64,000 bases of DNA from assembly GCF_900104845.1 (NCBI RefSeq), contig NZ_FNSR01000001.1, forward strand, positions 3,348,001-3,412,000, written 5' to 3'. A model generated the notes under the pieces. That model did no database searches. It worked only from the letters and a program-made list of their open reading frames with translations, and was not told where the DNA came from. This stretch comes from Paraburkholderia caballeronis. Its GTDB lineage: Bacteria > Pseudomonadota > Gammaproteobacteria > Burkholderiales > Burkholderiaceae. Position numbers and translations under genes: made by a program. Below are positions 1 to 11,494 of the stretch, one piece after another (within the stretch, counting starts at the first letter, position 1; each line of letters begins with the position of its first letter).

Positions 1-2699
1 CGATAGAGCCGGTATGCGGCGCCGATCGTCTCCGCCTCGTCCGCGCTCATCAGCCCAAAGCGCGACACCTCGCGCAGCAGCGCGATGTTCCCGGTGTTGC
101 GGATCAGCTCCGGGTCCTGCGCCGCGTGCAGCAGCACCCAGTACTGCACCAGGAACTCGATGTCGACCATCCCGCCGCGATCGTGCTTCAGATCGAACAG
201 GTCGGTCCGGTTCGGGTGCCCTTCCTCGACCCGCCGCCGCATGTCGACGATCTCGCCCGCGAGCGGCCCCGCCTCGCGCGGCGTCGTCAGCACCTGCACG
301 CGGATCGCCTCGAAGTGCGCGCCGATCCCGGCGTCGCCCGCGCAGAAGCGCGCGCGCGTCAGCGCCTGGTGCTCCCACACCCACGCGGTGTTCGCCGCGT
401 CGCCCTCGCGCAACTGGTAGCGGCGGAACGCGTCGAGGTCCGTCACGAGCAGCCCCGACTCGCCGTTCGGCCGCAGCCGCAGATCGACGTCGAACAGCGT
501 GCCCGCGCCGGTCGCGGTCGTGAGCCACGTGATCAGCCGGCGCGCGAACATCGCGTAGACGTCCGACGCGCTGTCGTCCTCGTCGTCGTACAGGAAGATC
601 AGGTCGAGGTCCGACGCGTACCCCAACTCCTTGCCGCCGAGCTTGCCGTATGCGATCGCCGCGAAACGCGGCACGTCGCGATGACGCCTCGGAAACTGCT
701 GCCACACCGCGTCGATCGTCACGTCGAGCACCGCGTCCGCGAGTTCGGACAGCCGGTCGCTCACGTGCTCGACCGACAGCCGCCCCGCGAGATCGAGCAA
801 CAGGATGCGGAACACCTCGGCCTGGTGCGCGTGGCGCAGCAGGTCCATCTGCTGCTCCACGCCGTCCGCCGCCGCGAGCCGCGCGCGCAGTTGCTGCCTG
901 AACACGGGCCAGTCGAACGGCGTCGCGATCGCTTCGTCGTCGAGCAGTTCGTCGAGTAGTTGCGGATGGCGGATCAGATAACCGGCCGCCCAGCGCGACC
1001 CGCCCAGCACCTTCAGCACCCGGGTCAGCGCGTCCGGATATTCGGTCAGCAGCGCGAGATACGCGCCGCGCCGGCCGACCGCTTCGAGCAGTTCGAACAG
1101 CCGCGCGAGCGTGTCCGCGCGGCGCTCGCGCGGCTCCAGCGTGCGCGCCGCGTCGAGCGCGCGCTGCGCGACGCTGTCGAAACGCTCGCGGCTGCGCTCC
1201 GGCAGGCTCGCATAACGCGACGACCGCCACAGCCCGCGCAGCCGCGCCAGCAGTGGCTCCGCGCCGTCGATGCCGAGTTCCGCGAGCCGCGCGAGCAGCG
1301 CGTCGTCGCCGCCGTCCTCCGCGAGCGCGCCGCTCCACACCCACGCGGCCGCGCCGTCCTCGGGCGCCGCGCAGCCGCCGTCCCCGTTCACCTTGTCCGC
1401 GAAGATCTGGTCGAACTGCCGCTCGACCCGGTCGCGGTGCGCGTCCAGCTCCGCGAGCAGCGCCGGATAACCGTCGAAGCCCATCGCGGCCGCCAGCGCG
1501 TGACGCTCCGCGTCGTCGACCGGCATCGCGTGGGTCTGCGCGTCGTCGCGGTATTGCAGCCGGTGTTCGAGCGCGCGCAGGAAGCGGTACGCGCGCGCGA
1601 GGTCCGTGCCGACCTCGGACGCGATCAACCCGCGCGCCGCCGCGTAACCGAGCACCGCGAGCGTCGGCCGCACGCGAAAACCCGCGTCCTGGCCGCCGCG
1701 GATCAACTGGAACACCTGCGCGCTGAACTCGATCTCGCGGATGCCGCCGCGGCCGAGCTTGATGTCGTCGGCCTTGTCCGGCCGCATCGTCGCGCGGCGC
1801 TGCGCTTCCTGGCGGATCTGCACATGCAGCGAGCGGATCGCGCCGATCACGCCGAAGTCGAGGTAACGCCGGTACACGAACGGCTTCACGAGCGCGTCGA
1901 GCTGCGACGCGAGCCGCTGTGCGGACTCGCTGTGCGGCTCCGACACGAGCCGCCCCTTGATCCACGCGTAACGCTCCCACTCGCGGCCCTGCACGTAGAA
2001 ATATTCTTCGAGCATCCCGAGGCTGCACACGAGCGGCCCGGAATCGCCGTTCGGCCGCAGCCGCATGTCGACGCGGAACACGAAACCGTCCGCGGTCACG
2101 TCCGCGAGCGCCGCGATCAGCCGCTTGCCGACGCGCGTGAAGAAGTCCTGCGTCGCGATCGGCGCGCGCTGGCCGCCGGTCGTCTCGCCGTCGTCCTCGT
2201 ACACGAAGATCAGGTCGATGTCCGACGACACGTTCAGCTCGCGCCCGCCGAGCTTGCCCATTCCGACGACGCCGAGCGTCAGCCGCTCGCCGTCCGGTCC
2301 GCGCGGCTCGCCGAACAGCGTTTCGAGATCGGCGCTGACGACCGCGAGCGAACGCTGGATCGCGATCTCCGCGAGGTCGGTCATCGCGCCGGTCACTTCG
2401 GCGACGTCCGCGACGCCGCCCAGGTCGCGCTCCATCACCGCGCAGAACACCTCGATGCGCAGCCGGCGCAGCACCTGCTTCAACTGCTCGTCGGTCAGCG
2501 GCGCGGCGACCGCGCCCGATGCGCCGGACGCGGAACCGCCCAAAGCCTCGCACAACGCGTCGAAGCGCGCGGCGATGCGCTCGCGCGTGACCGGCGCGGC
2601 GGCCAGCGACTCGACCTGCGCGGCCAGTTCGGGACGCGCTCCATAAGCGCGCGCCGCGTAACGGGAAAAGCCGGAACTCAGAAGAGGGATGTCAGTCAT
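1..2699 (-). CDS. glnE: Bifunctional glutamine synthetase adenylyltransferase/adenylyl-removing enzyme (C-terminal end outside window)
   Basis: GlnE adds AMP to, or removes AMP from, glutamine synthetase in response to PII and glutamine, so it sets nitrogen assimilation in the cytoplasm. About 899 codons are visible and the frame runs off the left edge; family members are about 930-950 residues, so only a short tail is missing. Both nucleotidyltransferase signatures are present. The first, GGRELNVSSDIDLIFVYED (Asp160 and Asp162), belongs to the adenylyl-removing half. The second, GGKELGYASDLDLIFLYDD near residue 700, belongs to the adenylylating half. Their spacing matches Escherichia coli GlnE. 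The start is the ATG giving MTDIPLLSSGFSRY. It is transcribed divergently from the YhdP-family gene, with about 210 bases between the start codons. Confidence 0.97.
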   Translation of the reverse strand, partial: MTDIPLLSSGFSRYAARAYGARPELAAQVESLAAAPVTRERIAARFDALCEALGGSASGASGAVAAPLTDEQLKQVLRRLRIEVFCAVMERDLGGVADVAEVTGAMTDLAEIAIQRSLAVVSADLETLFGEPRGPDGERLTLGVVGMGKLGGRELNVSSDIDLIFVYEDDGETTGGQRAPIATQDFFTRVGKRLIAALADVTADGFVFRVDMRLRPNGDSGPLVCSLGMLEEYFYVQGREWERYAWIKGRLVSEPHSESAQRLASQLDALVKPFVYRRYLDFGVIGAIRSLHVQIRQEAQRRATMRPDKADDIKLGRGGIREIEFSAQVFQLIRGGQDAGFRVRPTLAVLGYAAARGLIASEVGTDLARAYRFLRALEHRLQYRDDAQTHAMPVDDAERHALAAAMGFDGYPALLAELDAHRDRVERQFDQIFADKVNGDGGCAAPEDGAAAWVWSGALAEDGGDDALLARLAELGIDGAEPLLARLRGLWRSSRYASLPERSRERFDSVAQRALDAARTLEPRERRADTLARLFELLEAVGRRGAYLALLTEYPDALTRVLKVLGGSRWAAGYLIRHPQLLDELLDDEAIATPFDWPVFRQQLRARLAAADGVEQQMDLLRHAHQAEVFRILLLDLAGRLSVEHVSDRLSELADAVLDVTIDAVWQQFPRRHRDVPRFAAIAYGKLGGKELGYASDLDLIFLYDDEDDSASDVYAMFARRLITWLTTATGAGTLFDVDLRLRPNGESGLLVTDLDAFRRYQLREGDAANTAWVWEHQALTRARFCAGDAGIGAHFEAIRVQVLTTPREAGPLAGEIVDMRRRVEEGHPNRTDLFDLKHDRGGMVDIEFLVQYWVLLHAAQDPELIRNTGNIALLREVSRFGLMSADEAETIGAAYRLY

Positions 2700-8549: not shown

Positions 8550-10016
8550 ATGAACATCATCGAACCCGTCATTCATCACCTTGCGATCGCGAAGGACGCG
8601 CTGCTGACGCCCTACGGCCTCGACGAAGCGGTGCTCACGCGCACGCTCGGCGAGATCTTCACGCACCGCGTGGACTACGCGGACCTGTACTTCCAGGCTA
8701 CCCGCAGCGAGGCGTGGAGCCTCGAAGAAGGCATCGTGAAGTCCGGCAGCTTCAGCATCGACCAGGGCGTCGGCGTGCGCGCGGTGTCCGGCGAGCGCAC
8801 CGCGTTCGCGTACTCCGACGACCTGTCGCCCGACGCGATCCGCCAGGCCGCGATCGCCACCCGCTCGATCGCCAAGGCCGGCGGCGGCAAACAGAAGATC
8901 AAGGTCGCGTCGTCGCTGAAAGGCGTCTCCGGGCGCGACCTGTACCTGAGCGCCGACCCGCTCGCGTCGCTCGACGCCACCGAAAAGGTGAAGCTGCTGG
9001 AGCGCATCGAGCAGATGGCGCGCGGGCGTGACCCGCGCGTCACGCAGGTGATGGCCGCGCTCGCCGGCGAATACGACGTGGTGCTGGTCGCGCGCAGCGA
9101 CGGCGCGCTCGCCGCCGACGTGCGCCCGCTGGTGCGCGTGTCGGTGACGGTGATCGCCGAGCAGAACGGCCGGCGCGAGGTCGGCAACGGCGGCGGCGGC
9201 GGCCGCTTCGACTACGGTTATTTCACCGACGACGTGCTGTCGAAATACGTCGACGACGCGGTCCACGCGGCGCTGGTGAACCTCGACGCGCGGCCCGCGC
9301 CGGCCGGCGCGATGACCGTCGTGCTCGGGCCGGGCTGGCCCGGCGTGCTGCTGCACGAGGCGATCGGCCACGGGCTCGAAGGCGATTTCAACCGCAAGGG
9401 CTCGTCGGCGTTCGCCGGACAGATCGGCGAGCGGGTCGCGGCGAAAGGCGTGACGGTGGTCGACGACGGCACGCTGCCGAACCGCCGCGGCTCGCTGAAC
9501 ATCGACGACGAGGGCAACCCGACGCAGTGCACGACGCTGATCGAGGACGGCATCCTGAAGGGTTACATCCAGGACTCGCTGAACGCGCGGCTGATGAAGA
9601 TGCCGGTGACGGGCAACGCGCGGCGCGAGTCGTACGCGGCGCTGCCGATGCCGCGGATGACGAACACCTACATGCTGAACGGCGACAGGGATCCGGCGGA
9701 AATCCTCGCGTCGGTGAAGAACGGCCTCTATGCGGTGAACTTCGGCGGCGGGCAGGTGGACATCACGAACGGCAAGTTCGTGTTCTCGGCGTCGGAGGCT
9801 TACATGATCGAGGACGGCAAGATCACGTACCCGGTGAAGGGGGCGACGCTGATCGGCAGCGGGCCGGAGTCGCTCAAGTACGTGAGCATGATCGGCAACG
9901 ACATGCGGCTGGATTCGGGCGTCGGGGTGTGCGGCAAGGAAGGCCAGAGCGTGCCGGTCGGCGTCGGCCAGCCGACGCTGCGCATCGACCGCATGACGGT
10001 CGGCGGCACGGTCTGA
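8550..10016 (+). CDS. tldD: Metalloprotease TldD
   Basis: TldD pairs with TldE/PmbA to form a zinc protease that trims flexible peptides, including microcin B17 precursor and CcdA in E. coli. The 488-residue protein carries the HExxxH zinc motif in [14 protein letters not shown], with the first His at residue 269. It also has typical family blocks: the N-terminal DYADLYFQ, the middle [14 protein letters not shown] and the C-terminal [20 protein letters not shown]. The start follows immediately on the previous intergenic region and gives the conserved N-terminal helix. No tldE/pmbA partner is in this window; in this group it normally lies elsewhere. A perfect 15-bp inverted repeat begins five bases after the stop codon. 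Confidence 0.97.
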
Positions 10017-10020
10017 TCGA

Positions 10021-10055
10021 TGCATGGCCGTGCGGTAAATCCGCACGGCCATGCA
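10021..10055. terminator. Perfect 15-bp hairpin just after tldD
   Basis: TGCATGGCCGTGCGG pairs perfectly with CCGCACGGCCATGCA across a 5-base loop (TAAAT). No U-run follows, so it may be a 3' end-stabilising or Rho-assisted element rather than a classical intrinsic terminator. It separates tldD from the aroG leader transcription unit. Confidence 0.55.
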
Positions 10056-10114
10056 GACAATCCGCGCAAAACCACCCTCTTTCGCAATAGATCCGCATTT
10101 TCACCGAAACCCGC

Positions 10115-10143
10115 TTGCCAAGCCGCAGACTATCGGGTTATAA
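10115..10143 (+). promoter_or_regulatory. Sigma70-type promoter of the aroG leader
   Basis: A -35 element TTGCCA (10115-10120) and a -10 element TTATAA (10138-10143) are separated by exactly 17 bases, inside an AT-rich island of a very GC-rich sequence. A transcript would start near 10150, about 40 bases before the leader peptide ATG. No start site is shown by the sequence itself. Confidence 0.6.
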
Positions 10144-10190
10144 AGGCAATCACCTTTTTCGAATACCGCGCCGCTAAACCGCACTCCGCC

Positions 10191-10259
10191 ATGTTCGCCA
10201 CGAAGTTTTACTTTTATTTTTTCTGGCATCTCAGACCGCAGGCGGATCGAGAGGGTTGA
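10191..10259 (+). CDS. Aromatic leader peptide of the aroG attenuator (MFATKFYFYFFWHLRPQADREG)
   Basis: This 22-codon ORF has aromatic residues at 8 of its first 12 positions, with seven in a row (FYFYFFW, codons 6-12). The Phe and Tyr codons are mostly TTT and TAT, which are rare in neighbouring genes. This is the hallmark of leader peptides that sense charged Phe/Tyr/Trp tRNA. The gene downstream, aroG, makes the first intermediate of aromatic amino acid synthesis. A terminator hairpin follows 31 bases after the stop codon. The Shine-Dalgarno sequence before the ATG is weak (GCACTCCGCC), which is the main reservation. No other start codon with a better ribosome site lies between the promoter and this ATG. 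Confidence 0.8.
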   Translation: MFATKFYFYFFWHLRPQADREG

Positions 10260-10295
10260 TAGCACGCGCAACACCCGAACACACGAAAAACCGCC
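10241..10295 (+). promoter_or_regulatory. Candidate antiterminator pairing in the aroG leader
   Basis: GGCGG (10241-10245), located between the aromatic codons and the leader stop codon, can pair with CCGCC (10291-10295), the 5' arm of the terminator. A ribosome stalled on the aromatic codons would leave GGCGG free to disrupt the terminator. A ribosome reaching the stop codon would cover it. The pairing is short (5 bp plus a possible outer C-G), so its energetic adequacy is inferred. Confidence 0.45.
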
Positions 10296-10318
10296 AGCGA
10301 AGCCTGGCGGTTTTTTTT
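10286..10318 (+). terminator. Rho-independent terminator (attenuator) upstream of aroG
   Basis: CCGCCAG (10291-10297) pairs with CTGGCGG (10304-10310) over a 6-base loop. The stem is flanked by five A residues before and eight T residues after (10311-10318). This is the strongest intrinsic terminator in the window, and it lies about 100 bases before the aroG start codon rather than after a gene. Confidence 0.9.
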
Positions 10319-10420
10319 CGTCCATCCCGTAACCGAGCAGCAACTTCATCTAACGACTTTTTGGCAGCACCGTCCGCGCCACCCCGCAGACACGCTACGA
10401 ACGGATCAGGAGAACCAGCC

Positions 10421-11494
10421 ATGCCCCCGCACAACACCGACGATGTCCGCATCCGGGAATTGAAAGAACTCACGCCGCCCGCCCACCTGATCCGCGAATT
10501 CCCGTGCTCGGAAGCCGCGTCGAACCTGATCTACGAATCGCGCCGCGCACTGCACCGCATCCTGCACGGGATGGACGACCGCCTGATCGTCGTGATCGGC
10601 CCGTGCTCGATCCACGACACCAAGGCCGCGGTCGAATACGCGCGCCAGCTCGTCGAGCAGCGCAAGCGTTTCGCCGGCGACCTGGAGATCGTGATGCGCG
10701 TGTACTTCGAAAAACCGCGCACCACCGTCGGCTGGAAGGGGCTCATCAACGACCCGTATCTCGACAACAGCTTCAAGATCAACGACGGCCTGCGCACCGC
10801 GCGCGAACTGCTCGTGCAGATCAACGAACTCGGCCTGCCGGCCGGCACCGAGTACCTCGACATGATCAGCCCGCAGTACATCGCGGACCTGATCTCGTGG
10901 GGGGCGATCGGCGCGCGCACGACCGAGTCCCAGGTGCACCGCGAACTCGCGTCCGGGCTGTCGTGCCCGGTCGGCTTCAAGAACGGCACCGACGGCAACG
11001 TGAAAATCGCCGTCGATGCGATCAAAGCCGCGTCGCAGCCGCACCATTTCCTGTCGGTCACGAAGGGCGGCCACTCGGCGATCGTGTCGACCGCCGGCAA
11101 CGAGGACTGCCACGTGATCCTGCGCGGCGGCAAGGCGCCGAACTACGACGCGGACAGCGTGAACGTCGCGTGCGCGGACATCGGCAAGGCCGGTCTCGCC
11201 GCGCGCCTGATGATCGACGCGAGCCACGCGAACAGCCAGAAGAAACACGAGAACCAGATTCCGGTCTGCGCGGACATCGGCCGTCAGCTCGCGGCCGGCG
11301 ACGAGCGGATCGTCGGCGTGATGATCGAATCGCATCTCGTCGCGGGCCGCCAGGACCTGAAGGAAGGTTGCGCGCTCACCTACGGGCAGAGCATCACCGA
11401 TGCGTGCATCGGCTGGGACGAGAGCATCCCCGTGCTCGAAGGGCTGGCCGAAGCGGTCCGGCAGCGGCGCGTCGCGCGCGGCAGCGGGAACTGA
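10421..11494 (+). CDS. aroG: 3-deoxy-7-phosphoheptulonate (DAHP) synthase
   Basis: AroG condenses phosphoenolpyruvate and erythrose 4-phosphate to DAHP, the committed step of the shikimate pathway. The 357-residue protein is a class I alpha (E. coli AroF/G/H-like) enzyme. It shows RELKELTPPAHL near the N-terminus, VVIGPCSIHD, RVYFEKPRTTVGWKGLINDP, IGARTTESQVHRELASGLS, PVGFKNGTDG and the C-terminal ASHANSQK metal/substrate region. The ATG is set by AGGAGA eight bases upstream. The gene is preceded by an aromatic leader peptide and terminator, so transcription is probably attenuated by Phe/Tyr supply in addition to allosteric feedback. A terminator lies about 100 bases downstream. Confidence 0.98.
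   Translation: MPPHNTDDVRIRELKELTPPAHLIREFPCSEAASNLIYESRRALHRILHGMDDRLIVVIGPCSIHDTKAAVEYARQLVEQRKRFAGDLEIVMRVYFEKPRTTVGWKGLINDPYLDNSFKINDGLRTARELLVQINELGLPAGTEYLDMISPQYIADLISWGAIGARTTESQVHRELASGLSCPVGFKNGTDGNVKIAVDAIKAASQPHHFLSVTKGGHSAIVSTAGNEDCHVILRGGKAPNYDADSVNVACADIGKAGLAARLMIDASHANSQKKHENQIPVCADIGRQLAAGDERIVGVMIESHLVAGRQDLKEGCALTYGQSITDACIGWDESIPVLEGLAEAVRQRRVARGSGN

Follow-up and report, generated by a model that had tools for sequence, protein, structure and literature searches.

How is the first step of aromatic amino acid synthesis adjusted in a bacterium without TyrR? The question is raised by aroG of Paraburkholderia caballeronis, whose upstream region was analysed as part of a 64,000-nucleotide stretch of DNA (the window) on a 3.7-Mb contig of the 7.1-Mb, three-contig genome. 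In gammaproteobacteria, control of aromatic synthesis is assigned to TyrR and TrpR (PMC5343134). A preliminary description of this DNA contrasted aroG with the TyrR-controlled aroG of enteric bacteria, and that contrast holds: the TyrR DNA-binding (HTH) domain TIGR04381 had no match in the P. caballeronis genome, and across a control set of 14 genomes it was found in Escherichia coli only. On the same ground, aroG does not qualify as a member of a TyrR regulon.

We consider it highly probable (roughly 0.9) that the element upstream of aroG is a ribosome-mediated transcription attenuator of the classical type, sensing phenylalanine, tyrosine and usually tryptophan. It occupies positions 10115-10420, and its 5' neighbour is tldD, which ends at 10016. 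The features are as follows:

10115..10143, forward strand: predicted promoter, TTGCCA at 10115-10120, 17 bases, then TTATAA at 10138-10143 (or TATAAA one base on), from the sequence and relatives
10191..10259, forward strand: leader open reading frame (ORF) of 22 codons followed by TGA, MFATKFYFYFFWHLRPQADREG, without a Shine-Dalgarno-like word, from the sequence and relatives
10206..10226, forward strand: regulatory codons F-Y-F-Y-F-F-W, codons 6-12 of the leader, from the sequence and synonymous variation in 41 in-frame relatives
10229..10252, forward strand: predicted protector hairpin 1:2, TCTC-A-GACCG / CGG-A-TC-GAGA, within the leader ORF, from the fold and pairing in relatives
10238..10249, forward strand: antiterminator segment 2, GCAGGCGG (10238-10245) plus TCG (10247-10249), from folds and shuffles
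10287..10297, forward strand: segment 3, the 5' arm of the terminator, AAAACCGCCAG, from the sequence and 3:4 helix pairing in relatives
10287..10318, forward strand: intrinsic terminator 3:4, with a stem of 11, loop CGAAGC and eight T, from the fold and relatives
10408..10412, forward strand: AGGAG, predicted ribosome site of aroG, from the sequence
10421..11494, forward strand: aroG (ATG at 10421), a class I DAHP synthase of 357 amino acids, from its best solved relatives

At E about 1e-153, the best solved relatives of AroG bear the name of Phe-sensitive or phenylalanine-regulated DAHP synthase. In a quick tree of 80 named loci, the AroG of the window is placed together with its counterparts from Burkholderia sp. 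LMG 13014 and D-99 (support 93). At 10021-10055, 3' of tldD, lies a perfect 15-bp inverted repeat with the loop TAAAT and no T run; several relatives carry a TGCGGA..TCCGCA hairpin with a T run at the matching place.

The promoter, the 22-codon ORF with FYFYFFW at codons 6-12 and the terminator with eight T had all been claimed in the preliminary description, and each was found at the positions listed above. A simple consensus scan of 9900-10600 listed no promoter-like and no terminator-like site; we suspect that the terminator was missed because half of its T run is engaged in A4:T4 pairs of the stem, and the promoter because its hexamers deviate too much from the consensus. Chance was therefore judged with relatives. 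The promoter-like pattern TTG-17..22-TATAAAG is present in 34/34 aligned sequences, these being 34 of the 36 sequences from the window's genus plus L069, with L022 and L026 omitted as unfit for the anchor pattern. The terminator hairpin (10287-10314) reads AAAACCGCCAG-CGAAGC-CTGGCGGTTTT, its 3' end lying inside the T run at 10311-10318, and it is one of just four sites of the form CCGCC-N4..16-GGCGGTTTTTT in the 7.1-Mb genome.

The alternative structures are predicted from folds. The protector hairpin, folded with bases 3' of it, reaches -10.8 kcal/mol, and segment 2, which includes GGCGG at 10241-10245, is predicted to pair with segment 3 (10287-10297) and with CGA at 10284-10286. A helix between GGCGG and the 5' arm of the terminator had been proposed from the window; it is borne out by the relatives, but in the window taken alone the match is short (5 pairs; 5/60 shuffles as good). 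Segment 2 contains CAGGCGG in the window versus CTGGCGG in 40 of 41 in-frame leaders of the Burkholderia type, and this places an A opposite an A in the antiterminator, which is weaker here (-15.5 kcal/mol) than in relative L009 (-26.4 kcal/mol).

The mechanism that we propose would run as follows. Transcription would start near 10150 and a ribosome would translate the 22-codon leader. A shortage of charged tRNA for Phe, Tyr or Trp (whichever of these may matter most) would stall the ribosome in the F-Y-F-Y-F-F-W run, and its leading edge would cover or disturb segment 1. With segment 1 blocked, segment 2 (GC.GGCGG) would pair with the newly made segment 3 (CCGCC.GC), the terminator could not form and aroG would be read. 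With Phe, Tyr and Trp all plentiful, the ribosome would instead reach the stop codon and cover segment 2, so that segments 3 and 4 could pair and transcription would end in the T run.

Such a mechanism predicts that the two halves of the leader are conserved for different reasons, and this was examined in 41 in-frame leaders of the Burkholderia type (from Burkholderia, Paraburkholderia, Caballeronia, one Burkholderiales MAG and further genomes, identical rows included). All six F/Y codons vary between T and C at the third base with the residue kept, the rarer codon occurring in 1 to 17 of the 41 rows; residues of the F/Y run change in two rows only (Y to S and F to Y, giving FYFSFY). Behind the aromatic run, most of the sequence is fixed. 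Counted from the first F, codons L9, P11, A13 and E16 are identical in 41/41 leaders and codons L12, D14 and R15 are the same in 39-40; looser spots are R10, which differs from AGA in 8/41, and G17, whose third base varies. Four further loci (L010, L024, L031 and L033) have an extra base after TGG, which changes the peptide to WASQTAGGSRGV and leaves the nucleotides of the hairpin unchanged. From the codon variation and the frame-changed loci that keep the hairpin RNA, it follows that selection acts on the peptide in the first half of the ORF and, over most of the second half, on the RNA. In one locus (L023), the aromatic run is one base short and the ORF extends into the terminator region, which may reflect a sequencing error or a broken attenuator.

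Pairing is retained among relatives. In 27 sequences, standard pairs fill 98.7% of the cells of the 1:2 plus 3:4 structure (97.1% for the 1:2 helix and 100% for the 3:4 helix) and 98.3% of those of the 2:3 structure; these sequences vary little, and pairs changed on both sides number two and zero, respectively. When Burkholderia-type and Cupriavidus rows are set aside, covariation is seen at base 1 of the 2:3 helix (37/52 paired against a permuted mean of 29.2, with 0/5000 permutations as high), a test that omits two loci without the CCGCC core and five without the GGCGG core and makes no correction for relatedness; at the two other 2:3 positions tested, covariation was not significant (p 0.20 and 0.12). 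Across the 104 positive loci described below, the median distance of the start of segment 2 is 12 bases from where the last aromatic codon begins, and 21 bases from the stop codon that follows. In 90/104 loci, no more than 5% of shuffles equal the real segment 2 in their fit to segment 3; the other 14 include the window.

Folds were then computed for these loci leaving out the bases under the ribosome, with shuffled spacers as control (n = 520). The antiterminator was predicted in 104/104 loci when the ribosome stood on the first or on the middle aromatic codon (controls, 253/520 for the first codon and 210/520 for the middle), and in 93/104 when it stood on the last (controls, 214/520). A ribosome placed on the stop codon left the antiterminator in 1/104 loci (controls, 56/520) and gave the terminator in 104/104; the latter is no test, because the loci were chosen for having a terminator and 515/520 shuffled controls behave likewise. 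In the absence of a ribosome, the antiterminator is preferred at equilibrium in 68/104 loci, the window among them (controls, 238/520), and the predicted protector step, with termination in the untranslated state, would therefore have to rest on folding during synthesis.

The element accordingly combines a short ORF between a predicted promoter and the first structural gene, an intrinsic terminator before that gene, a run of end-product codons kept by peptide selection and, by predicted fold, a mutually exclusive antiterminator that a stalled ribosome would release and a ribosome on the stop codon would block. The classical attenuation geometry read from the window is in this way supported by conservation, codon variation and modelled folds, and both the conservation of leader and terminator and the RNA folding, which the preliminary description had proposed as checks, came out in its favour.

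The leader-terminator pair is widespread and rare by chance. An initial search recovered 30 aroG loci, all of which (30/30) have FYFYFF or FYFSFY in a short ORF together with the same kind of terminator. Using a detector that looks in aroG upstream regions for a leader with a terminator 8-100 bases behind it, we identified the pair in 104 of 190 regions, the window included. This corresponds to 102/186 after merging duplicates, namely three places shared by the two collections and one near-identical pair. Close to identical relatives are present among the 104 positives, which comprise 78 distinct peptides. The same detector returned 0/190 antisense regions, 2/1,900 shuffled regions and 1/144 pieces of 3' flank. 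One hit was removed as spurious (L071, with an ORF 900 bases away). A likely leader in Tepidiphilus (L220), having three Phe only, was rejected by the threshold, so the counts are conservative. The 190 regions draw on 76 of the 97 genomes with an aroG match, the window included; 20 were left out and one (G043) enters only as L059.

Positive regions were found in both collections (62/110 in the first and 42/80 named loci in the second) and belong to the orders Burkholderiales, Xanthomonadales and Rhizobiales. In the first collection, 27 of the 62 lie in 12 of the 31 families other than that of the window. Named positives include, among Burkholderiales, Burkholderia, Paraburkholderia, Caballeronia, Cupriavidus, Variovorax, Polaromonas and Xylophilus, together with the Oxalobacteraceae Janthinobacterium, Massilia, Rugamonas and Oxalobacter; further positives are Xanthomonas, Stenotrophomonas, Pseudoxanthomonas, Dyella, [Pseudomonas] boreopolis, Bradyrhizobium, Mesorhizobium, Devosia and several MAGs. 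P. lacunae (L149) and C. lacunae (L159) represent Paraburkholderia and Cupriavidus among the carriers of the element. The preliminary description regarded an attenuated DAHP synthase gene in a betaproteobacterium as worthy of note; the attenuator itself is supported, but it is not peculiar to that group, given the Xanthomonadales and Rhizobiales rows. An attenuated DAHP synthase gene also has a precedent, unmentioned in that description, in Corynebacterium glutamicum, discussed below.

Among the named loci, none of seven from Enterobacterales was positive; other negatives were Enterovibrio, Colwellia, Rhodocyclales-type loci, Methylotenera, Ferrovum, Chromobacterium, Chitinimonas, Chitinilyticum, Undibacterium (L169) and the chromosome-2 copy of Cupriavidus necator (L221). 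In 19 of the 32 families of the first collection, no region was positive among the one to three examined per family, and four loci (L047, L103, L105 and L111) have a similar terminator without an aromatic leader. Eighteen upstream regions of second DAHP synthases, including the chromosome-2 copy of the window genome, and of weaker matches (L051-L068) showed no convincing leader; one of them, L058, has a weak ORF with four aromatic residues and no terminator. In a MAG labelled Anaerolineae (L197), an aromatic ORF (MSRYFSFFSWYGYFAAGQ...) lies about 200 bases before an aroG-like DAHP synthase gene; the inverted repeat behind this ORF is GC-rich but of another sequence, and a clear T run is missing.

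In a tree of AroG with 81 rows, built by a quick method and with 31 of its 78 inner branches open, the presence of the leader requires six changes against a mean of 26.9 when shuffled, which indicates that the leader follows the gene. The Rhizobiales aroG genes that carry the attenuator (L214, L215, L218, L223, L183, L184 and L189) stand beside those of Xanthomonadales (support 84, not starred), a placement that may point to a transfer of aroG together with its attenuator.

Within a genome, the element appears to be tied to a single site. A covariance model was built on 27 elements out of 42 distinct ones known here from the Burkholderia type and close kin. At E up to 0.001 it found exactly one site in each of 71 among 100 family genomes, and at least four of the 71 (G000, G003, G014 and G153) had supplied rows to the model. 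All but one of these matches (70/71) are located 39-187 bases upstream of aroG and in its orientation; in the last genome (G200), no aroG passed the threshold used. Eight of the 78 family genomes with aroG had no match. In P. caballeronis, the next match of the model has an E of 0.68, which leaves a regulon of such leaders in this genome unsupported, and no aromatic leader was found at its trpE and pheA loci with their flanks (L142 and L144).

Two properties of the leader concern what it reads and how it is read. Of the 104 leaders, 79 have all three residues F, Y and W in the aromatic run; 20 have F and Y, three have F and W, and two have F only. Stalling had been ascribed to Phe and Tyr codons; these are kept, but since Trp codons usually accompany them, the composition of the run suggests that the element is better called an aromatic sensor than a Phe/Tyr sensor. 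The weak ribosome site of the leader, singled out earlier as the main uncertainty, was correctly observed: no Shine-Dalgarno-like word was found within 20 bases of the leader ATG in any of the 34 aligned sequences, and 102/104 leaders are without one, about 7% being expected to have one by chance. The gene aroG has its own Shine-Dalgarno word in 30/30 loci (L001-L030) and in 23 of the 29 named loci that could be judged, 10 of 39 starts being not judgeable. Judging by these words, initiation on the leaders must be weak or of another type.

Three other explanations were weighed against attenuation. That the element has no regulatory role, the terminator belonging to tldD and the ORF being accidental, could be argued from its position between tldD and aroG and from the missing Shine-Dalgarno word, and yet tldD is followed by a separate 15-bp inverted repeat of its own (10021-10055), promoter-like hexamers precede the ORF in 34/34 aligned sequences, and the ORF and terminator persist as a pair in genomes whose leaders share little sequence. 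Together with the near-zero chance controls and the constraint on codons, this leads us to reject the idea, which we regard as hardly credible. Sensing by the nascent peptide deserves slightly more weight. As in TnaC with tryptophan, the leader peptide itself would stall the ribosome on a free aromatic amino acid, and the C-terminal LRPLADREG is indeed largely conserved in leaders of the Burkholderia type. However, several third bases of that stretch are fixed, which points to RNA, and outside the Burkholderia type the residues differ and the GGCGG core is kept in 52 of 57 scorable loci. The four frame-changed loci keep the RNA and lose the C-terminal residues, and we reject this mechanism as very improbable.

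The remaining explanation takes the short RNA with its 3' end at 10318 to be mainly an independent product, either a small RNA or a peptide-coding RNA acting on other targets when released. In rhizobia, the released trp leader RNA acts on other targets, and in the present case promoter and terminator bound a unit of about 170 bases in which long stretches are invariant across the 27 sequences. Most of these invariant stretches, however, are those needed for the alternative hairpins, 70 of the 71 covariance model matches stand in front of aroG, and the aromatic run is kept through synonymous change, for which an RNA role has no need. We therefore regard it as unlikely that the RNA is mainly its own product, and favour the attenuator of aroG; the leader RNA may have an additional role in trans.

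Attenuation at the entry step of the pathway fits bacteria without TyrR; relative to the aroG element, TyrR and TrpR serve the same physiological task as DNA-binding proteins. An order-wide search gave a TyrR match at E up to 0.001 in three of 150 genomes, of which one (G145) passed the cut-off, and no leader precedes its aroG (L089). The other two matches are weak, and one of these two genomes bears a leader (G083, L120). The correlation between the leader and the absence of TyrR is one-sided, because many of the TyrR-free families here are also without the leader.

Attenuation of this kind is textbook knowledge and a DAHP synthase precedent exists; the interest of the element lies in its wide distribution and its mixed-codon sensing. 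The precedent, an attenuator at aroR-aroF of C. glutamicum, was reportedly described by Neshat in 2014. Passages of two papers describe a leader peptide with F-Y-F at this DAHP synthase gene and ribosome stalling as the signal (PMC11802643, PMC4046766), and the reported response is to Phe and not to Tyr (passage in PMC11802643). By these descriptions, the two systems share an aromatic leader before a DAHP synthase gene and a stalling logic, but C. glutamicum belongs to another phylum, and the aromatic residues named for its leader are three, with no Trp among them, versus seven here. The enterobacterial pheL (pheA) and pheST leaders are likewise named as attenuators in a passage of PMC11802643; they share the attenuation logic and the aromatic codons and differ in having target genes other than aroG. 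Membership in the Rfam family RF01859 (Phe_leader) was rejected, as the match to 10199-10319, at full model length, scored 16.5 bits against a gathering threshold of 55 (E 2.9). In ilvGMEDA-type leaders, one leader reads several end products of a branched pathway, and the present element resembles them in reading several amino acids, theirs being branched-chain and these aromatic. Among attenuators predicted by Merino, a Vibrio gene is named aroA, which we take to be a DAHP synthase gene. That table (PMC1173090 Table 7) places predicted attenuators before tyrA operons, including the Vibrio operon with aroA as its first gene and gyrA-serC-pheA-tyrA of Bordetella parapertussis. These too precede aromatic operons, but as tabulated they concern tyrA operons only, without a Burkholderia row or a description of the leaders (PMC1173090). 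In searches of open-access literature we found no proteobacterial aroG attenuator; an earlier mention may exist in the survey of proteobacterial attenuators reportedly made by Vitreschak and colleagues in 2004 or in that of Merino and Yanofsky of 2005.

We give even odds to a broader proposal, namely that these elements are all homologous and make up a single family of pan-aromatic attenuators, in which one leader, translated without a Shine-Dalgarno word, senses Phe and Tyr and in most cases also Trp, and that this family is the general control of shikimate entry in proteobacteria without TyrR (in Burkholderiales, in Xanthomonadales and, having travelled with aroG, in Rhizobiales), its GGCGG/CCGCC core persisting where the peptides have diverged almost completely. 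If true, this would explain by what means the entry into aromatic amino acid synthesis is adjusted in many proteobacteria that have no TyrR. The leader would be an unusual one in that all three aromatic amino acids are apparently read at once, and its family offers many natural variants of one attenuator, in which the constraints on peptide and RNA are largely separated along the same 69 bases. The lack of a Shine-Dalgarno word as a family trait is directly testable, and the element may be of practical relevance for engineering the production of aromatic compounds in Cupriavidus, Paraburkholderia and similar hosts.
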